A DNA stretch of 64,000 bases from Cafeteria roenbergensis (taxonomy: Eukaryota > Sar > Bigyra > Bicosoecida > Cafeteriaceae). Below the pieces are notes generated by a model. That model did not search any database. It saw only the letters and a program-made list of their open reading frames with translations, and had not been told where the DNA came from. The stretch spans positions 124,001 to 188,000 of the forward strand of contig VLTN01000015.1 in assembly GCA_008330645.1 (NCBI GenBank). Reading direction: 5' to 3'. The position numbers and the translations under genes are program-made. Each line of letters begins with the position of its first letter. The first letter of the stretch is position 1. Of this stretch, positions 26,784 through 37,289 are shown piece by piece.

Positions 26784-27800
26784 TCAGTCGGCGAACCGGC
26801 TAGGGAAGAGTCGGGCAAGTTCCCACGCCTCGTCCGCCGGATCCCAGCGCGGGTAGGCGATGTGCCGACGCGAAAGCACCGTTTCGTTGGGGACCAGGCT
26901 GTCGTTGATGCCGTAGGCACCGGGAAGCACCAGGAGAATTTGGACGAGACGTGCGAGCCGCTGAACTCGTCTCGTCGGTCCGCGAGCCCGGAGCGCGCCC
27001 AGTCCTAGCGCTTCGCCCTGGTCACGGGCGCGGAGCCGATGCGCGTCGTCGATGCCCAACGTTTCGCACAGGCTCCAGCGGGTGTTCCACCAGTCAGACA
27101 TGTACGGCTTCCACAGGTCGTAGTGAATGCCGTGGCGAATGCACTGCTTGGCCAGGTCGCAACCGAGGATCCACGGGCCGTCGGCGGCGATCACAAAAGA
27201 CGCACGTCCCTTCTTCCGACCCCGGAGGGCCTTCTGGAGCTCGCAGAAGGTGTCTTCATACTCACCGTCGCGCGTCAGTGGCGAGAGCACCGTGTGCCAT
27301 CCGGAGCCTGAGTCGGCGACGTGGAACGATGCTCCAGCCGAGGCAGCAGATTGAGACAACTCGAACGTGTGCGGCGGAGCTCCCTCCAGCGCGTCCGTGG
27401 GGGCCCGGAGCGACGCAGGCCTCGTCGTCGCCACCGCGCGCGTCACTCGGTTGATGACCGTGTGGAACGAAGCCAGTGCCACCCGAAGCGGCGGTGCGGA
27501 GAGGAGCTCGCGGCGGCTCACGCCAAGCAGCTCCAGCATGTGTGGTGTCACCTCAACACCCCGTGCAGGGCGGATGAGGGTGTGCCAGAAGGCAACTGGC
27601 ACAGCCACTCGGTCTCTGCAGTCGAGCACGGCAGCGCTCAGCTGGAGCACGGCCGGAGTGTCCGACGGCGAGTCGCGGCTCGTTGACATTCCGTGAAGGC
27701 ATACGATGCAGTCAGGCAGATCGGCTCCTGCGCATGCGAGAATGCCGCGGAAGCTTCGGGAAATGCTGAAAATCTGGAATCCAAAACGACGATACTGCAT
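26784..27800 (-). CDS. ERI1-like DEDDh pseudo-exonuclease, copy A
   Basis: An intronless gene of 338 residues, with the start chosen at MQYRRFGFQIF because that gives the same length as copy B. The fold signature follows ERI1/3'hExo. Strand 1 is CIVCLHGMS (36-38 region), where the family has DFEAT. Next come VLQLSAAVL, then FWHTLIRP...VTPHMLELLGV (family YVRP...ITGI). AADGPWILGCDLAKQ (about 206-218) stands where the family has TDGSWDMxKFL, and MSDWWNTRWSLC where it has WINIRKS. The region of the H-x-x-L-D-D motif reads RARGPTRRVQRLARLV, and the end INDSLVPN matches the family terminus. All catalytic positions are changed: Asp and Glu to His and Met, the Asp after W to Ile, and the His/Asp lost. 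About 70 extra residues lie before the third motif. If folded, it should bind but not cut RNA; function unknown. Confidence 0.7.
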   Translation of the reverse strand: MQYRRFGFQIFSISRSFRGILACAGADLPDCIVCLHGMSTSRDSPSDTPAVLQLSAAVLDCRDRVAVPVAFWHTLIRPARGVEVTPHMLELLGVSRRELLSAPPLRVALASFHTVINRVTRAVATTRPASLRAPTDALEGAPPHTFELSQSAASAGASFHVADSGSGWHTVLSPLTRDGEYEDTFCELQKALRGRKKGRASFVIAADGPWILGCDLAKQCIRHGIHYDLWKPYMSDWWNTRWSLCETLGIDDAHRLRARDQGEALGLGALRARGPTRRVQRLARLVQILLVLPGAYGINDSLVPNETVLSRRHIAYPRWDPADEAWELARLFPSRFAD

Positions 27801-29087
27801 TTTGGATCCTCGCACCAACGCTGAGTTGCCCACCATGCAACCAAGCCGCCTGCCAGCGCGCTGGAGGCATGCGACGAGAAGCGACGCGCCTCGTTGAGGG
27901 ACGGGCAACGGCAGCTGAGTGCGAGTTCGTTCCTACCTCCCCCCTTCCCTTCGCCCCGGCGACGATCGGGCTGCCTGCGGGGTCGACAGCTGCATGCTCG
28001 AACGCAGGGCACCCCGGCGCGTCGCGACCCGGGATAGCTCACGTGGTCCAAAAAGCGCAGCTGCTGCCATTTGGGCGTGGGCGGGAGGTTGGGCACCACC
28101 TGCGCGGACGCGTGAGGTGGAGCGGTGTGGCTTTGGTCGGCGATCTTGGAACATCTCTGCCCGGTCCTGGCCGACGTGCGCAGAGCTGGCCGTCGATGAC
28201 TGAGCCTTTCGGCGAACGAGGAGCTGGCCACGAGCATTCTGATAGGACGAAGCGGAATGTTGGCGGAGAGATGGTTAACCGTTCATCGACCCGCACTTCG
28301 TTGCAGGAGAAGATGGCGCAGCAGCATCATCCTCTGGTCTGAAAGTCGGCTCCATGGTTGGTGAAAATCCAGATTCACTTGCTCGCCGCGCAGTTCTGCT
28401 CGTGCACGCCTCAGAGTCTACCACGGCCCTGGGGGGCGGCTGCAAAGCCCCGCTTCCCGTCACTTTCAGGAACTTCTCGGCGCTTCTCGGCATCGGACTG
28501 TGGCTCAGACGGCACCTTGGTGACCCAAGGCGCTGGGTGCACTACACGAGCCGAGTGCCGCAATCCCCCTGATGCTTGTCTTGGTTCTGGTTGGTGGAGT
28601 GGGGACCTTGTGTCTAAAGATTGGGCTCGCCGGGGACCGCCAGGGTCGCCCGAGGGACGGGTGATGAACATCGTTGGGGGGGGGGGGGGGGCGAAAACTC
28701 TCGTAACCATGCCACACACTCGATTCACAGACTCATCAGGAACCAATGCATCACCGATGAATCAAAAACCGCGCGAAACCCGCGATCCCAAGTCCCAAGC
28801 CCAAGTCCCAGATCACTCCCATCACACCGCCACGAGTCGCCACTCAGCCGCCCCTGCTCACCGCATGCGCTCCACGTGCTGTCGCAGGTACTGCGTCTGC
28901 CCGATCAGCTGGGTGAGCTCTTCTTGTACTCCCCCATCTTGTCTTTCTCACGACTGACAACCAAGCAGGGCGAGACTGCGTTGGCCCCGCCGCGGGTTGC
29001 AGAGCCGAGCGCAGGCGTGTCGCTGAGACATGCGCTGCAAGGCCAACCAAGTTGACCAGCAACCTCAGCTGTCAGCCATTGCGAGCA
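27801..29087. other. low-GC intergenic region between the two ERI1-like copies (1287 bases)
   Basis: The longest gene-free stretch of the window. It contains a 16-base G run at 28676-28691. I searched it for the conserved blocks of the flanking paralogues (the MSDWWN and FPSRFAD regions) and found no third copy or fragment. No open frame here carries a family motif. The promoter of copy A must lie here. Confidence 0.5.
28676..28691 (+). repeat. G16 homopolymer
   Basis: Sixteen consecutive G in the spacer between the two ERI1-like genes; candidate G-quadruplex former and a likely site of sequencing length error. Confidence 0.9.
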
Positions 29088-30107
29088 TCATCTGTCTTCA
29101 TCGTCAGCGAACCGGCTAGGGAACCTGCGCGCGAGGCGCCGCACCTCTTTGGGAACGTGCCACTCCGGTTTGGAGATTTCCCGACGCGACATCACAATGG
29201 CGTTGGGAACCAGGCAGTCGTTGATGCAAGGCACCTCCTTGCGATCGATCAGGATGTCGCAAACAATGGAAGCCAGCCGGCGAGCTCGGTACGTCGGGCC
29301 CGATCCCCGGTCAATCCCGGATTTATCCAGGAGAGTCATCTGATCGCGCATGCGCATCTCTTTTGCATCGCGCCGGCCTTCGGCGCGGCAAAGCGTCCAG
29401 CGAATGTTCCACCAATCGGACATGCTGCGCCTCCACTTCGACGTCAGTCCGTCGTGCCTGACCTGTTTGGCCAGGCTGCTCCCTAGCAGCCAGGGTCCAT
29501 CCGTGACAAACATCACCTCGCCTGCCTCGCCCCTGTCAAAACCAAGGGCTTCTTGCATGCGCGCGAGCGCAGTTCTGTCGGCTTCGGCGTCACCAACCGG
29601 CGACAGCACCGTGCTCCAATCGGCAGCATGGTCACCGACGCGGAACGATGAGTCGGCCTTGGCGTCCGAGGCGACCAACTCAAACGTATGAAGCAATGCC
29701 GACTCTGGACCGCCCTCCAGCGCGCTGACAGGCTCGAGGCCTGAGGAGATCGCTCTGGAGAGCCTGTCAGTCACGAGGTGAAGCGACTCCAGGGCAATCC
29801 CGAGTTCCGGCGCTGTGTCGAGGCTCGCTAGGTCCTCGATTGCCAGCAGCTTTCGCATCAGCTTGCTAACGCGAATGTTCGGAGGTCGGCGGACGTAGGC
29901 GTGCCAAGCGGCAATGACCACGGGCGTGTCCTCGGCGAAGGCCAAAAACGTCGCACTCAGCTGGAGGGTCCTCATGTCGCGCGTGGGGCCCACAGCAATC
30001 CCATCCAGGCACACAAGCAGCTTGGGCGCGTCTCGCGCAGCCGCAAAGCCATGATCTGCAGAAATCCAAAAAAGCCGAGGGACGCGAAATCTGAAAAACA
30101 AGAACAT
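29088..30107 (-). CDS. ERI1-like DEDDh pseudo-exonuclease, copy B
   Basis: An intronless gene of 339 residues, starting at MFLFFRFRVPRLFW; an upstream TTG is in frame but is not a normal start. It aligns with copy A along its whole length, by eye about a third identical. The strongest blocks are LQLSA, HTFEL, WSTVLSPV, DGPWLLGSSLAKQVRH, MSDWWNIRW, MRMRDQ, INDCLVPN, SRREI and RRFPSRFADD. Against ERI1/3'hExo it keeps one catalytic residue, Asp35 in LVCLDGIA. The Glu two places on is Ile, the Asp after W206 is Leu, and the final His and Asp sit at Ser269 and Tyr273/Arg274. No SAP domain is present. A TTTTTCAG string lies inside the first codons, so the 5' end could be slightly different. Both copies being full length and open suggests selection. 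Role unknown; a nucleic-acid-binding or decoy role is only inference. Confidence 0.7.
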   Translation of the reverse strand: MFLFFRFRVPRLFWISADHGFAAARDAPKLLVCLDGIAVGPTRDMRTLQLSATFLAFAEDTPVVIAAWHAYVRRPPNIRVSKLMRKLLAIEDLASLDTAPELGIALESLHLVTDRLSRAISSGLEPVSALEGGPESALLHTFELVASDAKADSSFRVGDHAADWSTVLSPVGDAEADRTALARMQEALGFDRGEAGEVMFVTDGPWLLGSSLAKQVRHDGLTSKWRRSMSDWWNIRWTLCRAEGRRDAKEMRMRDQMTLLDKSGIDRGSGPTYRARRLASIVCDILIDRKEVPCINDCLVPNAIVMSRREISKPEWHVPKEVRRLARRFPSRFADDEDR

Positions 30108-31126: not shown

Positions 31127-32258
31127 TCACTCTTCAGCGGCCTCAGAGGCAGGGAACAGGGCGGCGCGCAAGACGTGCTGCAGCTCGTGGGTCACAAGCG
31201 CGAGGCGAGCGTGCAGGGAGTTGTCGACAACGATGCGGCCCGCCGAAGCGGACACGATAACCCCTCCTCCGACCCTGCCTCCGTCGGCCTCGAGACGCGT
31301 GTCAGCCTTGACCCAGACCGCTTCGGGCAGCTCAGCGTCGGCAACAGCAGCCTCGCCGGCCTTGGCGGCCGCTGCCGCCCCCGCCTCAGGCGTGTCGGCC
31401 TCCGCCTCGGCGCGGGCTCTTGCTGATGTCTCCGCCTCCCTGCGAAGCGCCTCAACCATCGCGGCCTTGACGGCGCTGCGGAGCTTGCTGCGGAGCTTGC
31501 TGCGCCCCTGAGCGTCCTTTGCCCCGCCGTCCCCGAGGAGGTCCACATCGCACCCGCGCACCCGCAGCTCTACGTCGGCGGCCACCTTTTCTCGGCCCGC
31601 GATCTGCGCGATGGCCTGGCCCGCGAGCGCTGGCAGCAGGTCCGCGTAGGGCTCGCCGCCAGCTGCCACGAAGCGCTCCATCTTGGACCGGGCATCCCGG
31701 CTGAGGTCGGTGAGGAGCCCGTCCTGGTGCCTCAGTCGGCGGATGCGCTCGTCATTGAGGACCTTGGACTCGTCCTTGCGAAGCTGGCTCTTGGCCTTGG
31801 CCTGCAGCCGCTTGTACTGATCGCGGAGCTGAGCCTTGCGCTTCGCGACGGTAAGCTGCTTCAGCGTCTCGCACTCGTGGTCGGTCTGCGAGACGCGCAG
31901 CACGGGGGGGGGGGTGAGGTTCAAGCTCGGTGTTTGCCTGCCGGCCCGGTGCAACAACTTGCGGCAAGTGGCTGCGAGCGCCCCTGCCAAGCACTGTTGC
32001 CCCCTGCCCCGCTCATCCCGGCCCCGAACCTCAAAGCACATCCCCGTCCAGCCCAGCGGCGCGCCGGGAGCGAGGAGCGGCAGAGGCGCGGCCCCGCGAG
32101 TTCAATGCGTCGCAACCAAACGCCACCAAGAGCCTCAAGCGCGTGTTCCGCACCTTGACGCGAATCTCCTCGGCCTTCTGCCTCGCCTCGAGCTTGATGA
32201 ACTCGGCCATCTGGTTGATCTGCCGCCGCGCGGCATCGTCGCCGAGGGCCCTGCTCAT
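31127..32258 (-). CDS. V-type proton ATPase subunit E
   Basis: Two exons (32258-32154 and 31885-31127; intron 268 bases, GTGCGG...TCGCAG) give 287 residues. The N-terminus (GDDAARRQINQMAEFIKLEA, then RQKAEEIRVK) is the family's long helix of the peripheral stalk. It continues as charged helix (LKQLTVAKRKAQLRDQYKRL; RHQDGLLTDLSRDARSKM). The C-terminal head has GGGVIVSASAGRIVVDNSLH, followed by ARLALVTHELQHVLRAALF, matching the GGVEI...NTLESRL...RxALF pattern of subunit E. With subunit G it forms the stators that hold V1 to V0, acidifying vacuoles and endosomes. The length is somewhat above the usual roughly 230 because of an Ala/Glu-rich insert before the final block. It is head-to-head with the SUMO protease gene (183 bases). 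Confidence 0.92.
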
Positions 32259-32441
32259 GGTGCCGCGAGGGTGAGTGCGGCAACCTGCAGATCAACTTGC
32301 CGTCGATGCGTGGCTCTGCCTCCACTGATCTCGGTGTCGCTTGGGCCTTGGCAGTTCGCTATTCCTCGCCTACAGCGCACCCGCGTCGCTGGCCGCGCAG
32401 CCCGGCGGCTGGGCACAGGCCAGGGGCGACGACCCTTGCCC

Positions 32442-35400
32442 ATGGCGCTGGCGCAGGGGCTCTCGCGGCTTGTCCGGGCGATTCTTGGCTCCCCCGGCCC
32501 GCGCAGCAGAAAGCGGCAGCGCGAAGGCGAGCCCGAGGAGGACGCTCGCGAGCCCATTGCGGCGGCAAGGCGCAAGCCGCAGGCCGAGAGCATTGCGGAG
32601 CGCGCGGAGCGCGAGGCCCGCGCTCGCTCGTTCGGCTGGGGGCCCGAGCCAAAGCGCGCTAGGGCAGGTTTGGAAACGGGGCCGCCGCCGGCGCGGGCGC
32701 CCGCCTTGGCGCCGCAAAGTCCTCGCCAGAGGATGGCAGCCGCTCGGGCATCGCACCTGGCAGGACTTTCAGGCCGCGGCGCCGTCGAGGAGGCTACGCC
32801 TGGCACGAGCGCCCGCTCCGGAGCAGGGCGAGGCCAGGCCTCGGGCCCGGCTTGGCACGGCAACGGCCTGGTGCCTGCGCCCCAAGCGCACCGTGTAGGG
32901 CGTTCCGGCCCTTCGCTGGGCTCCCAGGGGGGGAAGAGAGGGCCGTCCTGGCCGAGAGAACCCAGCGCACAGCGGCGGCCGATTCCGCAGGGCGCGCAGC
33001 TGCCCACCGCGTCGGCAGTGGCCAGCCATGGCCCTCTCTTCTCCCCGCTGCCCCGGAGGCCCGTTCCGGGCGCCGCAACAGCCCTCCGTCCACCCTCGCC
33101 CTCCCCGGCAAAAGCAGCGGCGCTGCCTTCGGGCAGGGGTCAGCTGACCAGCCGACTCGCAGCTCTGCGGAGCGCTGGGCTCGCAGCCGTGGCTGACGGG
33201 GTGGGGCAGGCCGCACCCGCACCGGTTCCCGCACCTAGCGCTGGCGCTGGCGCTGGTGCTGGCGCTGGTGCTGGTCCGGCTTCCGGGTTGGCGGCCATTC
33301 GCAGCCGGCCTGCGCTCTCGTCTTCGCGCCACGCTCTCGCTTCGCCCCCCACGCCCACAGCGGCGCCGTCTCGCTCGAGCGCCTCTTCGCCAGCAGCGAC
33401 CCGCTCCGTCCTCCCCCGCGACCGAGCCATCATTGCGCTCTTCGACACGGCTGCAAGGATCCTGGGGCCCGGCAAGGCCTCCAACCTCGCAGCGGCCATC
33501 GCGAAGCGAGCTCGCGCCGCGCAGGCAGCACCCCCCAGCCTCGGCCGCGGCACCCCGGGCTGCCCCCCGGACAGCCCCCCGTCCTCCTCCCGTGATGGAC
33601 TGCCATGGGGCCACAAGCAAGCGCCGGCTGCGGCTGCCGCAACCGGCATGGACGCCCTCAACGCGTCTCGCGTCGGCCAATCGTTCGGCCGGCTGCCGGG
33701 CGCTCTGTCGATCGGCTTGCGCCGCAGTGGCCTGTCAGCGGCTGGGAGCACGTCGCCGCCAGCATCCTCCCCCGGACTGCAGGCGGCGCTGCCGGCTGCA
33801 GCCACCGGTGCCGCAGGGCTGGGGTCCTCGGCTGGAGGTGACTCGCTGCTGATGGGGTCGTGGGCGGACCGCGTGGGCGCAGCTTCCGCCGTCGCTGACG
33901 GGCCCACGCCCTTCGGGGACGCAGCCCTTCCGTTGCGTGAGATGCACGACGTGGCAAGCGACGAAGACGGGGACGGGGACGGGGACGAGGAGAGTGCGAG
34001 CGAGGAAGTGGATGCGCGCAGCCAGTCCCTGCAGCGAGGGCGCATGGCGGCGGCAGCTGCTGCCGTGGCCCAGGCGGACGACAGCGGGAGCGACGCGGAT
34101 GTCGACCTGCTGTCGTCGTCGGACGACGACGATGAGGGCGAGGGCGAGGGCGCGGGCGATGCCGGCGCTGGGGGTGGCGCCTCTGGCTCTGCCGGGGGCG
34201 GTGCCGGGCGCGAGCCGCTGCCCCCCGGGCTCGACGGCGCGGAGAGCGACGCGGAGTTCTGCAAGAGGGAGGTGGGCTGGCACCCGAGGCGTCCCTTCTC
34301 CCCGGCCAGGGGCGTGGCTGCCGGGCCCGCCGACAGGTGGAGCAGGGAGGCGGAGGCGGAGAGGGCCAGGGTCAAGATCCTGGGGCGATACGGCGCCTCG
34401 GCTGCGGGATGGTCGCAGGCCGAGCTGGTGGCGCTCGCAGCGGCGTGGGGCCACGGGCCCGGCTCGCGGTCGGACCTTGCCGCAGTGGTGAGCAAGGTGG
34501 CCGACCAGACGGTCAGACGCGAGTCGCTGTACCGCATGCTGCCCGGCGAGTGGCTCAGTGACGAGAACATGAACTTCTGGGTCGCCTGGCTGCGGCGAGT
34601 GGTGGCCGAGCGGTCTGGCCACATTGCCCCGCGGCATCGGGGCAGGTTCCGCCCGGAAACCCTGCCGCCGCCCAGCGCGCCGCCGCTCGACTCCCTCGCG
34701 CCTTGCGCCCGCGCCGTGGTCCGGGCCACGCCTCGTCCCCTCCCCACCGTTCCCATTGGGAGCCGCTCTCAGGCAGAGCTGCGCCCCCGCCGCCGCTTCG
34801 GGTGGTTCCCGGAGCCGCAGGCTCCCCCCGTCGGCGCCGTGCGCCTGGGCCTGCTCGGGCCTGACGAGGACCCGTTCGGCAGAGACCGCGCCACCACCCG
34901 GCCAGCCCTTCGCGCCGCTGCCGCGGCCGCGCGCGCGGAGGCCGCAACCGGCCGCCCCCTCTGGCCGCCGCGCCGCGCCCCCTCCCAGCGGCGCGTCTTC
35001 GTCGCCCAGGTCATCCACCTCTGGCTCCTCAGCCTCAACGACGCAATGACGTACAACTACGAGTCCGTGCGCAAGTGGACCCGCAAGCAGGGCGTCGACG
35101 TCCGCTTCGTCGACCTCTGCCTCTTCCCGGTCAACGTCACGCCCACCCACTGGGCCCTCGTCGCCCTCGACCTGCGCGCGCAGCGGGTCGAGTACCTCGA
35201 CAGCCTCAGCCCCGGCGACGACGGGCCCCCCAGGCCCGGCTCCCGCGCCCACCGCCTCTGCTCCCACACGCTCCGCTGGCTCCGGGACGAGTGCGCGGCG
35301 TGGCCCGACGTGGGAGGCATCATCGACACCCTGGGGTTCACCATGCACCACTCCGCGCGGATGCCCCAGCAGCGCAACGGCTACGACTGCGGCGTGTTTG

Positions 35401-37289
35401 CTCTCTGGGCGGCGGAGAGCCTTGCTCTCCGTGGCAACATCACGTGGTCGCAGTGGGACGTGCCTGCCAAGCGGTGGCAGGTAGTGCGAACCATGGCCAG
35501 GCACTGCCCGGCCCTCGGAGAGGACGAGCTCGGCCTATCGGAGCCTGACTCGGACGGCGGGATTCCCGGGGCGGAGGGTTCAGCGGCCGAGGAAGGGGGG
35601 GCTCGGGAAGGGCTCGAAGCCGGCGGTGACTCGGGGTCCGAGGACGAGGACGAGGACGAGGGTGAGGACGAGGGCGAGGACGAGGACACCGAGGGCGTTG
35701 GCGACAGCCACGACGTCGACGCGGGCGCGCCGTGGGACAGCGTGCTGGCCGCCGAGGGACGCGCAGCGAAGGTCACTTCGTGGGCGGAGGCAGCTCAGAC
35801 GGAGGAGCTGGGGCACAGCAGTGCTTGGGGTGCCGGGAGCGCGGAAACGGGGCGGACAGAGCTGGGGATCGAGGAGGACGCGGAAGAAGCCGCGGAGGAG
35901 CACGACGTGGAGGAGCACGACACGGAAGGGGAGGACGTGGAGGGAGAGGACGAGGACGGTGCCAGCGCCGTTGTGGAGGCGGATCTGGGGCATGGCATCG
36001 ACGTGGGCATTGGCGCTGCTGACCACGCCAGTGACGCCGGGGCGCTTGCCGCCGAAGCGCTGGAGGAAGAGGAGGGTGAGGCAGAGCAGGAGGAAGAGGA
36101 GGATGAGGCAGAGCAGGAGGAAGCAGTGGAGGAGCAGGAGGCTCGGCTGCTCCATGGCAGAGCCGACGAGGGTCTGGAGCCGGAGAGCGAGCATCAGGAG
36201 GAGGTGTCCGAGTCCCCGGTGGAGGCGGCCGATGGGCCCGGCGAGCGCGCCGATGCCGTCGTTGACGCCGACGACGCCGATGTCAACGCCGAGGGAGCCG
36301 GCGCAAGCGGCGACTGGGCGGCAGCTGGTTTCGGCGCAGCGGACCCGCTATCTTTCAGCAGCTCCCATCAACGCGCAGCTGACGCGGCTGCCGTCGCCGA
36401 AGCAGACCTCGATCCCAACGCGCTGCCCGGGCGGGAGGGGCGTCCGGCGTCAACAGCATCTGCGGAGCTCGGCGGCCCTGCAATTCCGACCTTCGGCTCG
36501 GCTCTGCCCAACCCCTTCGCCGCGCAGTCGAACCCCTTCGCCGCGCAGTCAAACCCCTTCGCCGCTCTGCCCAACCCCTTCGCCGGGACCGCGCGCCCCC
36601 CAGCCGAAAGCACGGCATCCCAGGCGCCGCCGCCGAGTGCCTCCCGGCGCCCCCCCTCGGCCAACCCGTTCTCCCTTGAGGGCGCATCGCTGGCTGCAGC
36701 CTTCGGCGCCGAAGCCGCGGCCCAGAGCAGCCGAGCGGCCGACGCAGCCAAGGACGACGTCGGCGGGGCCAACAGCGACTCGGAAGAGCCCGTGGCGCAC
36801 CAGCCTGGCGGCCTGCAGGCAGAGGCGGGTTCAGATGCCGCCCCTGCTGGCGCGACACCGGAGAGCGTCGGCGGGCTTCAGGGCCGCGGTGCAGGGGACG
36901 CGAACGACAGCGGCATGCCCACAGCCACCCAAGCCCCGGCTGGAGCCGGTTCGGCAGCAGCCTGCCCAAGAGCAGCCGCTGGCGGCGCGGCGGAGGCTGC
37001 ACCCGAGGAGGAGCGATCGGGCGGCGCGTTGGGCGCGTTCATCAACGCGGCATTCTCGGGGCAGCCCGTCGCCTCGGCCGGCGGCGGCAACAACCCGCTT
37101 GCCGCTGCGATCGCGAACGGCCTGCAAAGCGGGGCCTCGGTGTCGGACATGGCCGAGTCGCTCCTGAACCAGCTCTCCCCCGCCTTTGTGGAGTCCTTTG
37201 GCCGTCGGCTGACGCGAGGGGGCGGCGGCAGGGCGGGGCAGGGCGACGCCGACAGCACGGATAGTGCCGACCGTGACGATGCCGTGTGA
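32442..37289 (+). CDS. Ulp1/SENP-type SUMO protease with acidic and NPF-repeat tail
   Basis: An intronless gene of 1615 residues; the start is taken at MALAQGLSRLVRAILGS because frame further upstream runs into the divergent V-ATPase E gene. The C48 peptidase domain lies at about 690-1030: YRMLPGEWLSDENMNFWVAW, VIHLWLLSLNDAMTYNYESV, TPTHWALVALDL (His903), VEYLDSLSP (Asp920) and MPQQRNGYDCGVF (Gln977, Cys983). The catalytic set is complete. The N-terminal 650 residues are Ala/Arg/Pro-rich with acidic runs. After the peptidase come long Asp/Glu-rich stretches, then four NPF motifs (PNPFAAQSNPFAAQSNPF, PNPFAGT) and a fifth ANPFSLEG. A final segment (AGGGNNPLAAAIANGLQSGA) is near the end. Ulp1/SENP proteases mature SUMO and remove it from targets. 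NPF motifs are ligands of EH domains in endocytic proteins, which is unexpected here. Confidence 0.88.
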   Translation: MALAQGLSRLVRAILGSPGPRSRKRQREGEPEEDAREPIAAARRKPQAESIAERAEREARARSFGWGPEPKRARAGLETGPPPARAPALAPQSPRQRMAAARASHLAGLSGRGAVEEATPGTSARSGAGRGQASGPAWHGNGLVPAPQAHRVGRSGPSLGSQGGKRGPSWPREPSAQRRPIPQGAQLPTASAVASHGPLFSPLPRRPVPGAATALRPPSPSPAKAAALPSGRGQLTSRLAALRSAGLAAVADGVGQAAPAPVPAPSAGAGAGAGAGAGPASGLAAIRSRPALSSSRHALASPPTPTAAPSRSSASSPAATRSVLPRDRAIIALFDTAARILGPGKASNLAAAIAKRARAAQAAPPSLGRGTPGCPPDSPPSSSRDGLPWGHKQAPAAAAATGMDALNASRVGQSFGRLPGALSIGLRRSGLSAAGSTSPPASSPGLQAALPAAATGAAGLGSSAGGDSLLMGSWADRVGAASAVADGPTPFGDAALPLREMHDVASDEDGDGDGDEESASEEVDARSQSLQRGRMAAAAAAVAQADDSGSDADVDLLSSSDDDDEGEGEGAGDAGAGGGASGSAGGGAGREPLPPGLDGAESDAEFCKREVGWHPRRPFSPARGVAAGPADRWSREAEAERARVKILGRYGASAAGWSQAELVALAAAWGHGPGSRSDLAAVVSKVADQTVRRESLYRMLPGEWLSDENMNFWVAWLRRVVAERSGHIAPRHRGRFRPETLPPPSAPPLDSLAPCARAVVRATPRPLPTVPIGSRSQAELRPRRRFGWFPEPQAPPVGAVRLGLLGPDEDPFGRDRATTRPALRAAAAAARAEAATGRPLWPPRRAPSQRRVFVAQVIHLWLLSLNDAMTYNYESVRKWTRKQGVDVRFVDLCLFPVNVTPTHWALVALDLRAQRVEYLDSLSPGDDGPPRPGSRAHRLCSHTLRWLRDECAAWPDVGGIIDTLGFTMHHSARMPQQRNGYDCGVFALWAAESLALRGNITWSQWDVPAKRWQVVRTMARHCPALGEDELGLSEPDSDGGIPGAEGSAAEEGGAREGLEAGGDSGSEDEDEDEGEDEGEDEDTEGVGDSHDVDAGAPWDSVLAAEGRAAKVTSWAEAAQTEELGHSSAWGAGSAETGRTELGIEEDAEEAAEEHDVEEHDTEGEDVEGEDEDGASAVVEADLGHGIDVGIGAADHASDAGALAAEALEEEEGEAEQEEEEDEAEQEEAVEEQEARLLHGRADEGLEPESEHQEEVSESPVEAADGPGERADAVVDADDADVNAEGAGASGDWAAAGFGAADPLSFSSSHQRAADAAAVAEADLDPNALPGREGRPASTASAELGGPAIPTFGSALPNPFAAQSNPFAAQSNPFAALPNPFAGTARPPAESTASQAPPPSASRRPPSANPFSLEGASLAAAFGAEAAAQSSRAADAAKDDVGGANSDSEEPVAHQPGGLQAEAGSDAAPAGATPESVGGLQGRGAGDANDSGMPTATQAPAGAGSAAACPRAAAGGAAEAAPEEERSGGALGAFINAAFSGQPVASAGGGNNPLAAAIANGLQSGASVSDMAESLLNQLSPAFVESFGRRLTRGGGGRAGQGDADSTDSADRDDAV

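Follow-up and report, generated by a model that had tools for sequence, protein, structure and literature searches.

In human 3'hExo (ERI1), five residues are required for catalysis, Asp134, Glu136, Asp234, His293 and Asp298 (PMC10388802). Proteins that have lost residues of this kind are known. EXD1, SMG5, Maelstrom and Exuperantia are named as established pseudonucleases in PMC8097288, and the pseudo-exonuclease, exemplified by Maelstrom, Exuperantia and EXD1, is already a described kind (PMC8097288, PMC7968707, PMC4408791). The DEDD-type fold of Maelstrom (MAEL) has no longer its catalytic residues in animals, where the protein binds single-stranded RNA strongly and does not cut it, while an amoebal relative has the full DEDD set and is an active exoribonuclease (PMC4408791). 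Ssd1 and Sts5 of fungi derive from Dis3L2 and represent the passage from an active exoribonuclease to an RNA-binding regulator, sometimes after duplication (PMC8097288). The present work concerns two neighbouring genes, copy A and copy B, in a 64,000-nucleotide stretch of the genome of the marine bicosoecid flagellate Cafeteria roenbergensis (the window; contig VLTN01000015.1, G000:C15:124001-188000 in the genome searched, which has 36,303,456 bases in 167 contigs). We take this species to be the C. burkhardae of later papers, both names standing for one set of cultured strains. It is likely that A and B are tandem-duplicated, catalytically dead DEDDh exonucleases of the ERI1 branch that are under purifying selection and act by binding. 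As a sequence finding, their assignment as a conserved pair of putative pseudo-exonucleases is solid.

Copy A (26784..27800, 338 aa, ATG at 27800, with an open frame that extends upstream to a TTG at 27908) and copy B (29088..30107, 339 aa, ATG at 30107) both lie on the minus strand, as do all of their features given below. They align nearly end to end with 42% identity (137/325, E 4e-66), which confirms the first-pass annotation of two leftward genes of 338 and 339 residues. That annotation also held that both copies have lost the DEDDh catalytic residues. The residue columns were read from an L-INS-i alignment in which A and B stand with the intact paralogues C4, C22 and C23 and with 23 of 32 bacterial loci. 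In the 26 relatives the five catalytic columns hold D in 26, E in 26, D in 25 (one has E), H in 26 and D in 26, and the loss in both copies is borne out: A has H, M, I, R and R (0/5 kept) and B has D, I, L, S and R (1/5 kept). At the strand-1 site the relatives have D-x-E, with D and E in 26/26, while A has H-G-M (27687..27695) and B has D-G-I (29997..30005), the first Asp being retained and the Glu lost. The Asp234 column is Ile in the DGPWI of A (27168..27182) and Leu in the DGPWL of B (29487..29501), where C4 and C22 have DGPWD. C4 has HSGIDD in the last block, which corresponds to RGPTRR in A (26967..26984), with Arg in both the His293 and Asp298 columns, and to SGPTYR in B (29286..29303), with Ser and Arg, although this stretch is gapped in both copies, its register is less sure and other alignments shift the block slightly. 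H-x4-D is absent from both A and B. The earlier readings of the strand-1 and DGPW sites stand, and those of the last block, given as neither residue in A and Ser/Tyr-Arg in B, are slightly different here.

Because aliphatic residues or Arg replace most of the metal-holding carboxylates, the active site of A and B very probably cannot work. Could the proteins still be enzymes, by way of migrated acidic residues or some other chemistry? Catalytic residues may migrate in pseudoenzymes, and some acidic residues are common to A and B away from the old active site. However, no acidic residue common to the two copies stands in any catalytic column, and Ile/Leu and Arg fill the former metal-site columns, so that continued enzyme activity is very improbable.

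Other parts of the proteins have been conserved between the copies. DGPW, MSDWWN (27084..27101 in A and 29406..29423 in B), IND-LVPN and FPSRFAD were all said to be present in both, and the alignment agrees. The FPSRFAD tail of A (26787..26807) is identical in B (29103..29123) and differs in C4. A and B also retain the DGxW Trp and the Asn in the WxN block. Both copies and C4 have an insert of about 75 residues ahead of strand 4, part of which (29604..29690 in B) is predicted to form three strands. In C22, C23 and the bacterial locus L017 this region is long but less similar, and it is missing from the remaining 22 bacterial rows.

The kinship of A and B with ERI1, proposed at first from the order of the motifs, is supported by searches that pass through C4. 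A genome search with B (E up to 1) returned B itself, A, here at 45%, and a C4 frame at 26% (3e-18), and a search with A (E up to 10) returned the same three frames. The C4 protein (G000:C4:429568-430515; DVEAT, DGPWD and HSGIDD complete) exceeds the Pfam RNase_T cut-off and matches human ERI1 (4.6e-10), ERI3 (1.8e-9) and ERI2 (1.6e-5). Two more genes come up when C4 is the query, one on C22 (7.7e-37; DVEAT, DGPWD and HCGLHD, in a reading that crosses a putative intron) and one on C23 (9e-14; DFEAT, CGDWD and HHSGLDD). An active ERI1 elsewhere in the genome, which it had been proposed to look for, is thus probably present, C4, C22 and C23 being ERI1-type genes in which no catalytic residue is missing. 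In a PDB sequence search a three-row profile of A, B and C4 reaches ERI3 (5.8e-5) and ERI1 (1.2e-4). Comparison of the A+B profile with that of C4/C22/C23 gave a probability of 99.2 (E 1.3e-19, 274 columns), and comparison by hhalign with a profile of 17 bacterial ERI1-like proteins that leaves out the Cafeteria paralogues gave 86.6 (E 4.5e-6, 169 columns). The negative control, the A+B profile against two SLBP-type proteins, gave 0.1 (E 0.55). With the five catalytic columns removed, the tree makes A and B sisters (100/100), to which first C4 (99/95) and then C22 (100/98) are joined. A and B are homologous to the ERI1-type DEDDh family by profiles, alignments to C4 and the tree, and not by direct Pfam or PDB matches; to judge from these comparisons, they are too diverged for direct matches and the profiles bridge the gap.

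Two observations concern the relatives themselves. The bacterial ERI1-like exonucleases occur in 32 loci (L017-L048) from Myxococcota, Planctomycetota, Pseudomonas and others; the aligned loci (n=23) keep the catalytic residues, one having E for D234, and some (L017, L019, L034) have extra C-terminal stretches. The C23 gene (L004 997-2730, minus strand) is one 578-codon open frame that joins a Tpt1/KptA half to an ERI1-type exonuclease, with matches to RNA 2'-phosphotransferase (PF01885 positions 86-177, the second half, 2.2e-14) and to PF00929 (1.8e-20). A search of viral contigs with two of the alignments confirmed no relatives.

A comparison of predicted structures with ERI1 had also been suggested. 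The best structure matches of a copy B model, built with 11 bacterial ERI1-like rows (pLDDT 68), are 3'hExo and ERI2, and in this model the DEDDh fold is retained. The Z score of Exuperantia for the B model is slightly below that of ERI1 and practically tied with it. Maelstrom is not among the best 50 structure matches of the model (VIA-align), an absence that excludes nothing. Foldseek of the model against viral models returned exonucleases and unrelated rows, the best at E 3.4e-5, which is weaker than the matches to ERI2 and 3'hExo in the PDB.

Codon-level constraint is seen between the two copies. Over 326 aligned codons the identity above chance is 0.39 at the first codon position, 0.49 at the second and 0.13 at the third, and pS and pN are 0.643 and 0.418, as against 0.69 and 0.73 in shuffled codon pairs. 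The Nei-Gojobori dN/dS is 0.42 with a dS of 1.46, a rough value because dS is near saturation, and one that comes from a single pair of paralogues. Both the ratio and the codon-position bias agree with the earlier proposal that the proteins are under selection. Loss of the catalytic residues before the duplication appears to be the simplest reading because both copies lack a catalytic residue at four of the five positions and agree in the Arg of the Asp298 column. The divergence of A and B would then be later than the loss, and the codon constraint would reflect selection on a dead enzyme. Catalytic loss with continued purifying selection would make the pair a pseudonuclease kept by selection. 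It is proposed that an ERI1-type gene, with intact C4 as its closest paralogue, lost the two-metal site and retained the fold and the insert shared with C4, and that the dead protein was then duplicated and evolved under purifying selection. Like Maelstrom, A and B would be binding proteins, with RNA as the most likely ligand, and would constitute a non-cutting regulator alongside the three ERI1-type enzymes whose catalytic residues are complete. A binding role probably stands in place of an enzyme role.

Besides the roughness of the dN/dS value, a number of points weigh against this interpretation. The Pfam scan gave RNase_T only at E 0.17 for A and listed nothing for B, and a PDB sequence search at E 10 with A, B or the A+B profile gave no ERI1 match. 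NCBIfam gave only a match at E 0.035 for A and listed none for B. The lone PDB sequence match, to Src (E 1.6), was non-significant. The lack of direct matches would be expected if A and B were unrelated to ERI1 and their motifs matched by chance in a compositionally biased sequence, but the profile comparisons with their negative control, the long alignments to C4 and the tree strongly disfavour this explanation, which is hardly credible. The hhalign match of A+B to the bacterial profile starts past strand 1. The B model depends on bacterial ERI1-like rows, so it is not an independent fold test, and it covers B only; AlphaFold on A and B alone reached a pLDDT of 36.8 and was not used. The A+B stem of the tree is very long, 2.55 changes per site versus 0.84 and 1.41 for the copies after their split, which makes the place of the pair in the tree less sure.

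Copy A retains 4 and copy B 6 of the 27 near-invariant columns (at least 90% in the 26 relatives). The loss extends beyond the active site, as read from the alignment, so RNA binding need not survive. The protein cores are not strongly basic, with pI 8.5 and 7.2 and net charges of +3 and 0 for A and B. These last points lead to the main rival to RNA binding, in which A and B are dead partner subunits that bind proteins as regulatory or scaffold partners of intact C4, C22 or C23. We regard such a protein-partner role as possible but rather unlikely. The near-neutral cores fit it, as does the loss of most family-invariant columns when A and B still agree in the insert, the MSDWWN block and the tail. 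The genome also has paralogues whose catalytic residues are complete, and dead paralogues that act as activators have precedents in trypanosome AdoMetDC and deoxyhypusine synthase. On the other hand no partner is known, and to our knowledge no ERI1 enzyme acts as a heteromer with a dead paralogue.

The long stem and the lost columns would also suit decaying relics, a pair that has lost its function, is drifting and does nothing at present. The B-A spacer contains a repeat, and open frames this long are not rare by chance here: frames of at least 356 codons arose in 66/300 stretches simulated from the local composition. Since high GC (62-77% across the window in 2-kb steps) makes long open frames common by chance, frame length is weak evidence and was rejected as evidence for genes. 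The case for real genes rests on the conserved A/B alignment and the codon pattern. Decay would even out all three codon positions, whereas the copies have 42% identity, a strong codon-position bias and retained shared motifs; decay is therefore improbable.

If the dead ERI1-type proteins bind RNA, the ERI1 targets most in reach would be the 3' hairpins of histone mRNA and the ends of rRNA, rather than small RNAs. The ends of rRNA are targets of ERI1. A six-frame, exon-by-exon search of the genome with no intron joining found no Piwi/Argonaute domain (PF02171) at E 0.001, so small-RNA ends are a less likely target, and the early suggestion that A and B compete for them is weakened. The more general suggestion of competition for the same 3' ends as ERI1 also loses ground, 23/27 (A) and 21/27 (B) of the near-invariant columns having changed. 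Two SLBP RNA-binding domains are above the Pfam cut-off (89 and 44 bits) and one is below it (23 bits), at L049, L050 and L051 on C2, C55 and C19. Next to the C55 and C19 copies is a long array of simple repeats, read as units of CWRAGVLA.

The core histone genes that lie in clusters share a terminal hairpin with a five-base loop, GGTGTT-CATTC-AACACC (CCCCGGTGTT-CATTC-AACACCACC; GGUGUUCAUUCAACACC), the RNA form being GGUGUU-CAUUC-AACACC, as at L053 2064 and L068 2010. The 21-base pattern has 43 exact matches in the genome, all on the histone-cluster contigs C27, C54 and C73, and its reversed control has 0. Thirty of the 43 lie 180-205 bases downstream of a same-strand histone Pfam match (36 of 40 histone matches were entered); nine of the 13 others were inspected, and 7 follow a frame recognised as histone H4 and 2 do not. 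A looser pattern has no match in the solitary histone loci L063, L064 and L065, finds a four-base-loop form at the H3 gene of L066 (1709), and also matches 12 times in other loci and twice in the window. RNAfold forms the stem, with an energy that does not stand out from shuffled sequences (z -1.7 and 0.07). Scanned against Rfam at E 10, none of L053, L068 and L066 had the Histone3 family listed, and a metazoan-type hairpin consensus pattern had 0 matches (reversed control 0 and 2). The kind of histone end that 3'hExo acts on in animals thus seems to be present here in an altered form. It is doubtful, and we would offer it as a long shot, that A and B are the first ERI1-derived pseudo-exonuclease family, one that sits on the histone mRNA 3' hairpin with the SLBP-type proteins without trimming and shields it from the intact ERI1-type enzymes.

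The genes had been called intronless. Their frames are uninterrupted as placed, but at the 5' ends this is unproven: a GCAG lies just upstream of strand 1 in the same codon phase in A (27728-27731), B (30056-30059) and C4 (L003 1354-1357). It could be a shared splice acceptor, so what reads as a Phe-rich N-terminus in A and B may be intron; a mitochondrial-targeting reading of these Phe/Arg-rich N-termini was dropped for this reason. An upstream exon is likely at least for C4, since no ATG precedes DVEAT in its frame. The repeat in the B-A spacer (28604..28952, no strand assigned) is dispersed and of high copy number, the spacer query having at least 110 matches genome-wide, itself included. 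Several matches are close to contig starts and some are tandem, and the repeat is perhaps of subtelomeric origin. The neighbours of A and B look ordinary. They are a V-ATPase subunit E frame (31127-32041, minus), which overlaps a Ulp1-type protease frame on the opposite strand (31836-37289, plus), these being the extents of open frames, and a frame of 1880 codons with no Pfam match at E 0.001.

How does the pair compare with known systems? It had been claimed that no described family has this pattern. Pseudo-exonucleases have been described, so the claim does not hold in general; an origin from ERI1 looks undescribed, none being among the matches listed in searches of the open-licence literature. 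Pseudonucleases illustrate how enzymes turn into RNA regulators, and this genome, from an organism with cultured strains, has three ERI1-type genes that appear complete and two that appear dead, together with SLBP-type genes and a hairpin of a distinct kind at histone 3' ends; no Argonaute was detected in it. What is the job of a dead ERI1 where small-RNA trimming is not it? The system lets this be asked, with histone mRNA, rRNA and a protein partner as candidate targets. Ssd1 and Sts5 belong to the RNase II family and are not DEDDh proteins. The structure with the EXO-like domain of Exuperantia also has a SAM-like domain. Maelstrom resembles B in keeping the first Asp and having Arg at another DEDD position, and it has a structural zinc held by ECHC; the Pfam scan, which can miss diverged members, did not list its family for A or B. 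The same scan listed no N-terminal SAP domain of the 3'hExo kind for A or B, with 5' gene ends that are unresolved and weak matches that can be filtered. Compared with ERI1/3'hExo, ERI2 and ERI3 (Pfam RNase_T), the five catalytic residues are all lost in A and all but one in B, and both copies have the insert and a different tail. C4 has the same insert and block order and joins A and B in the tree, but its DVEAT, DGPWD and HSGIDD are complete.

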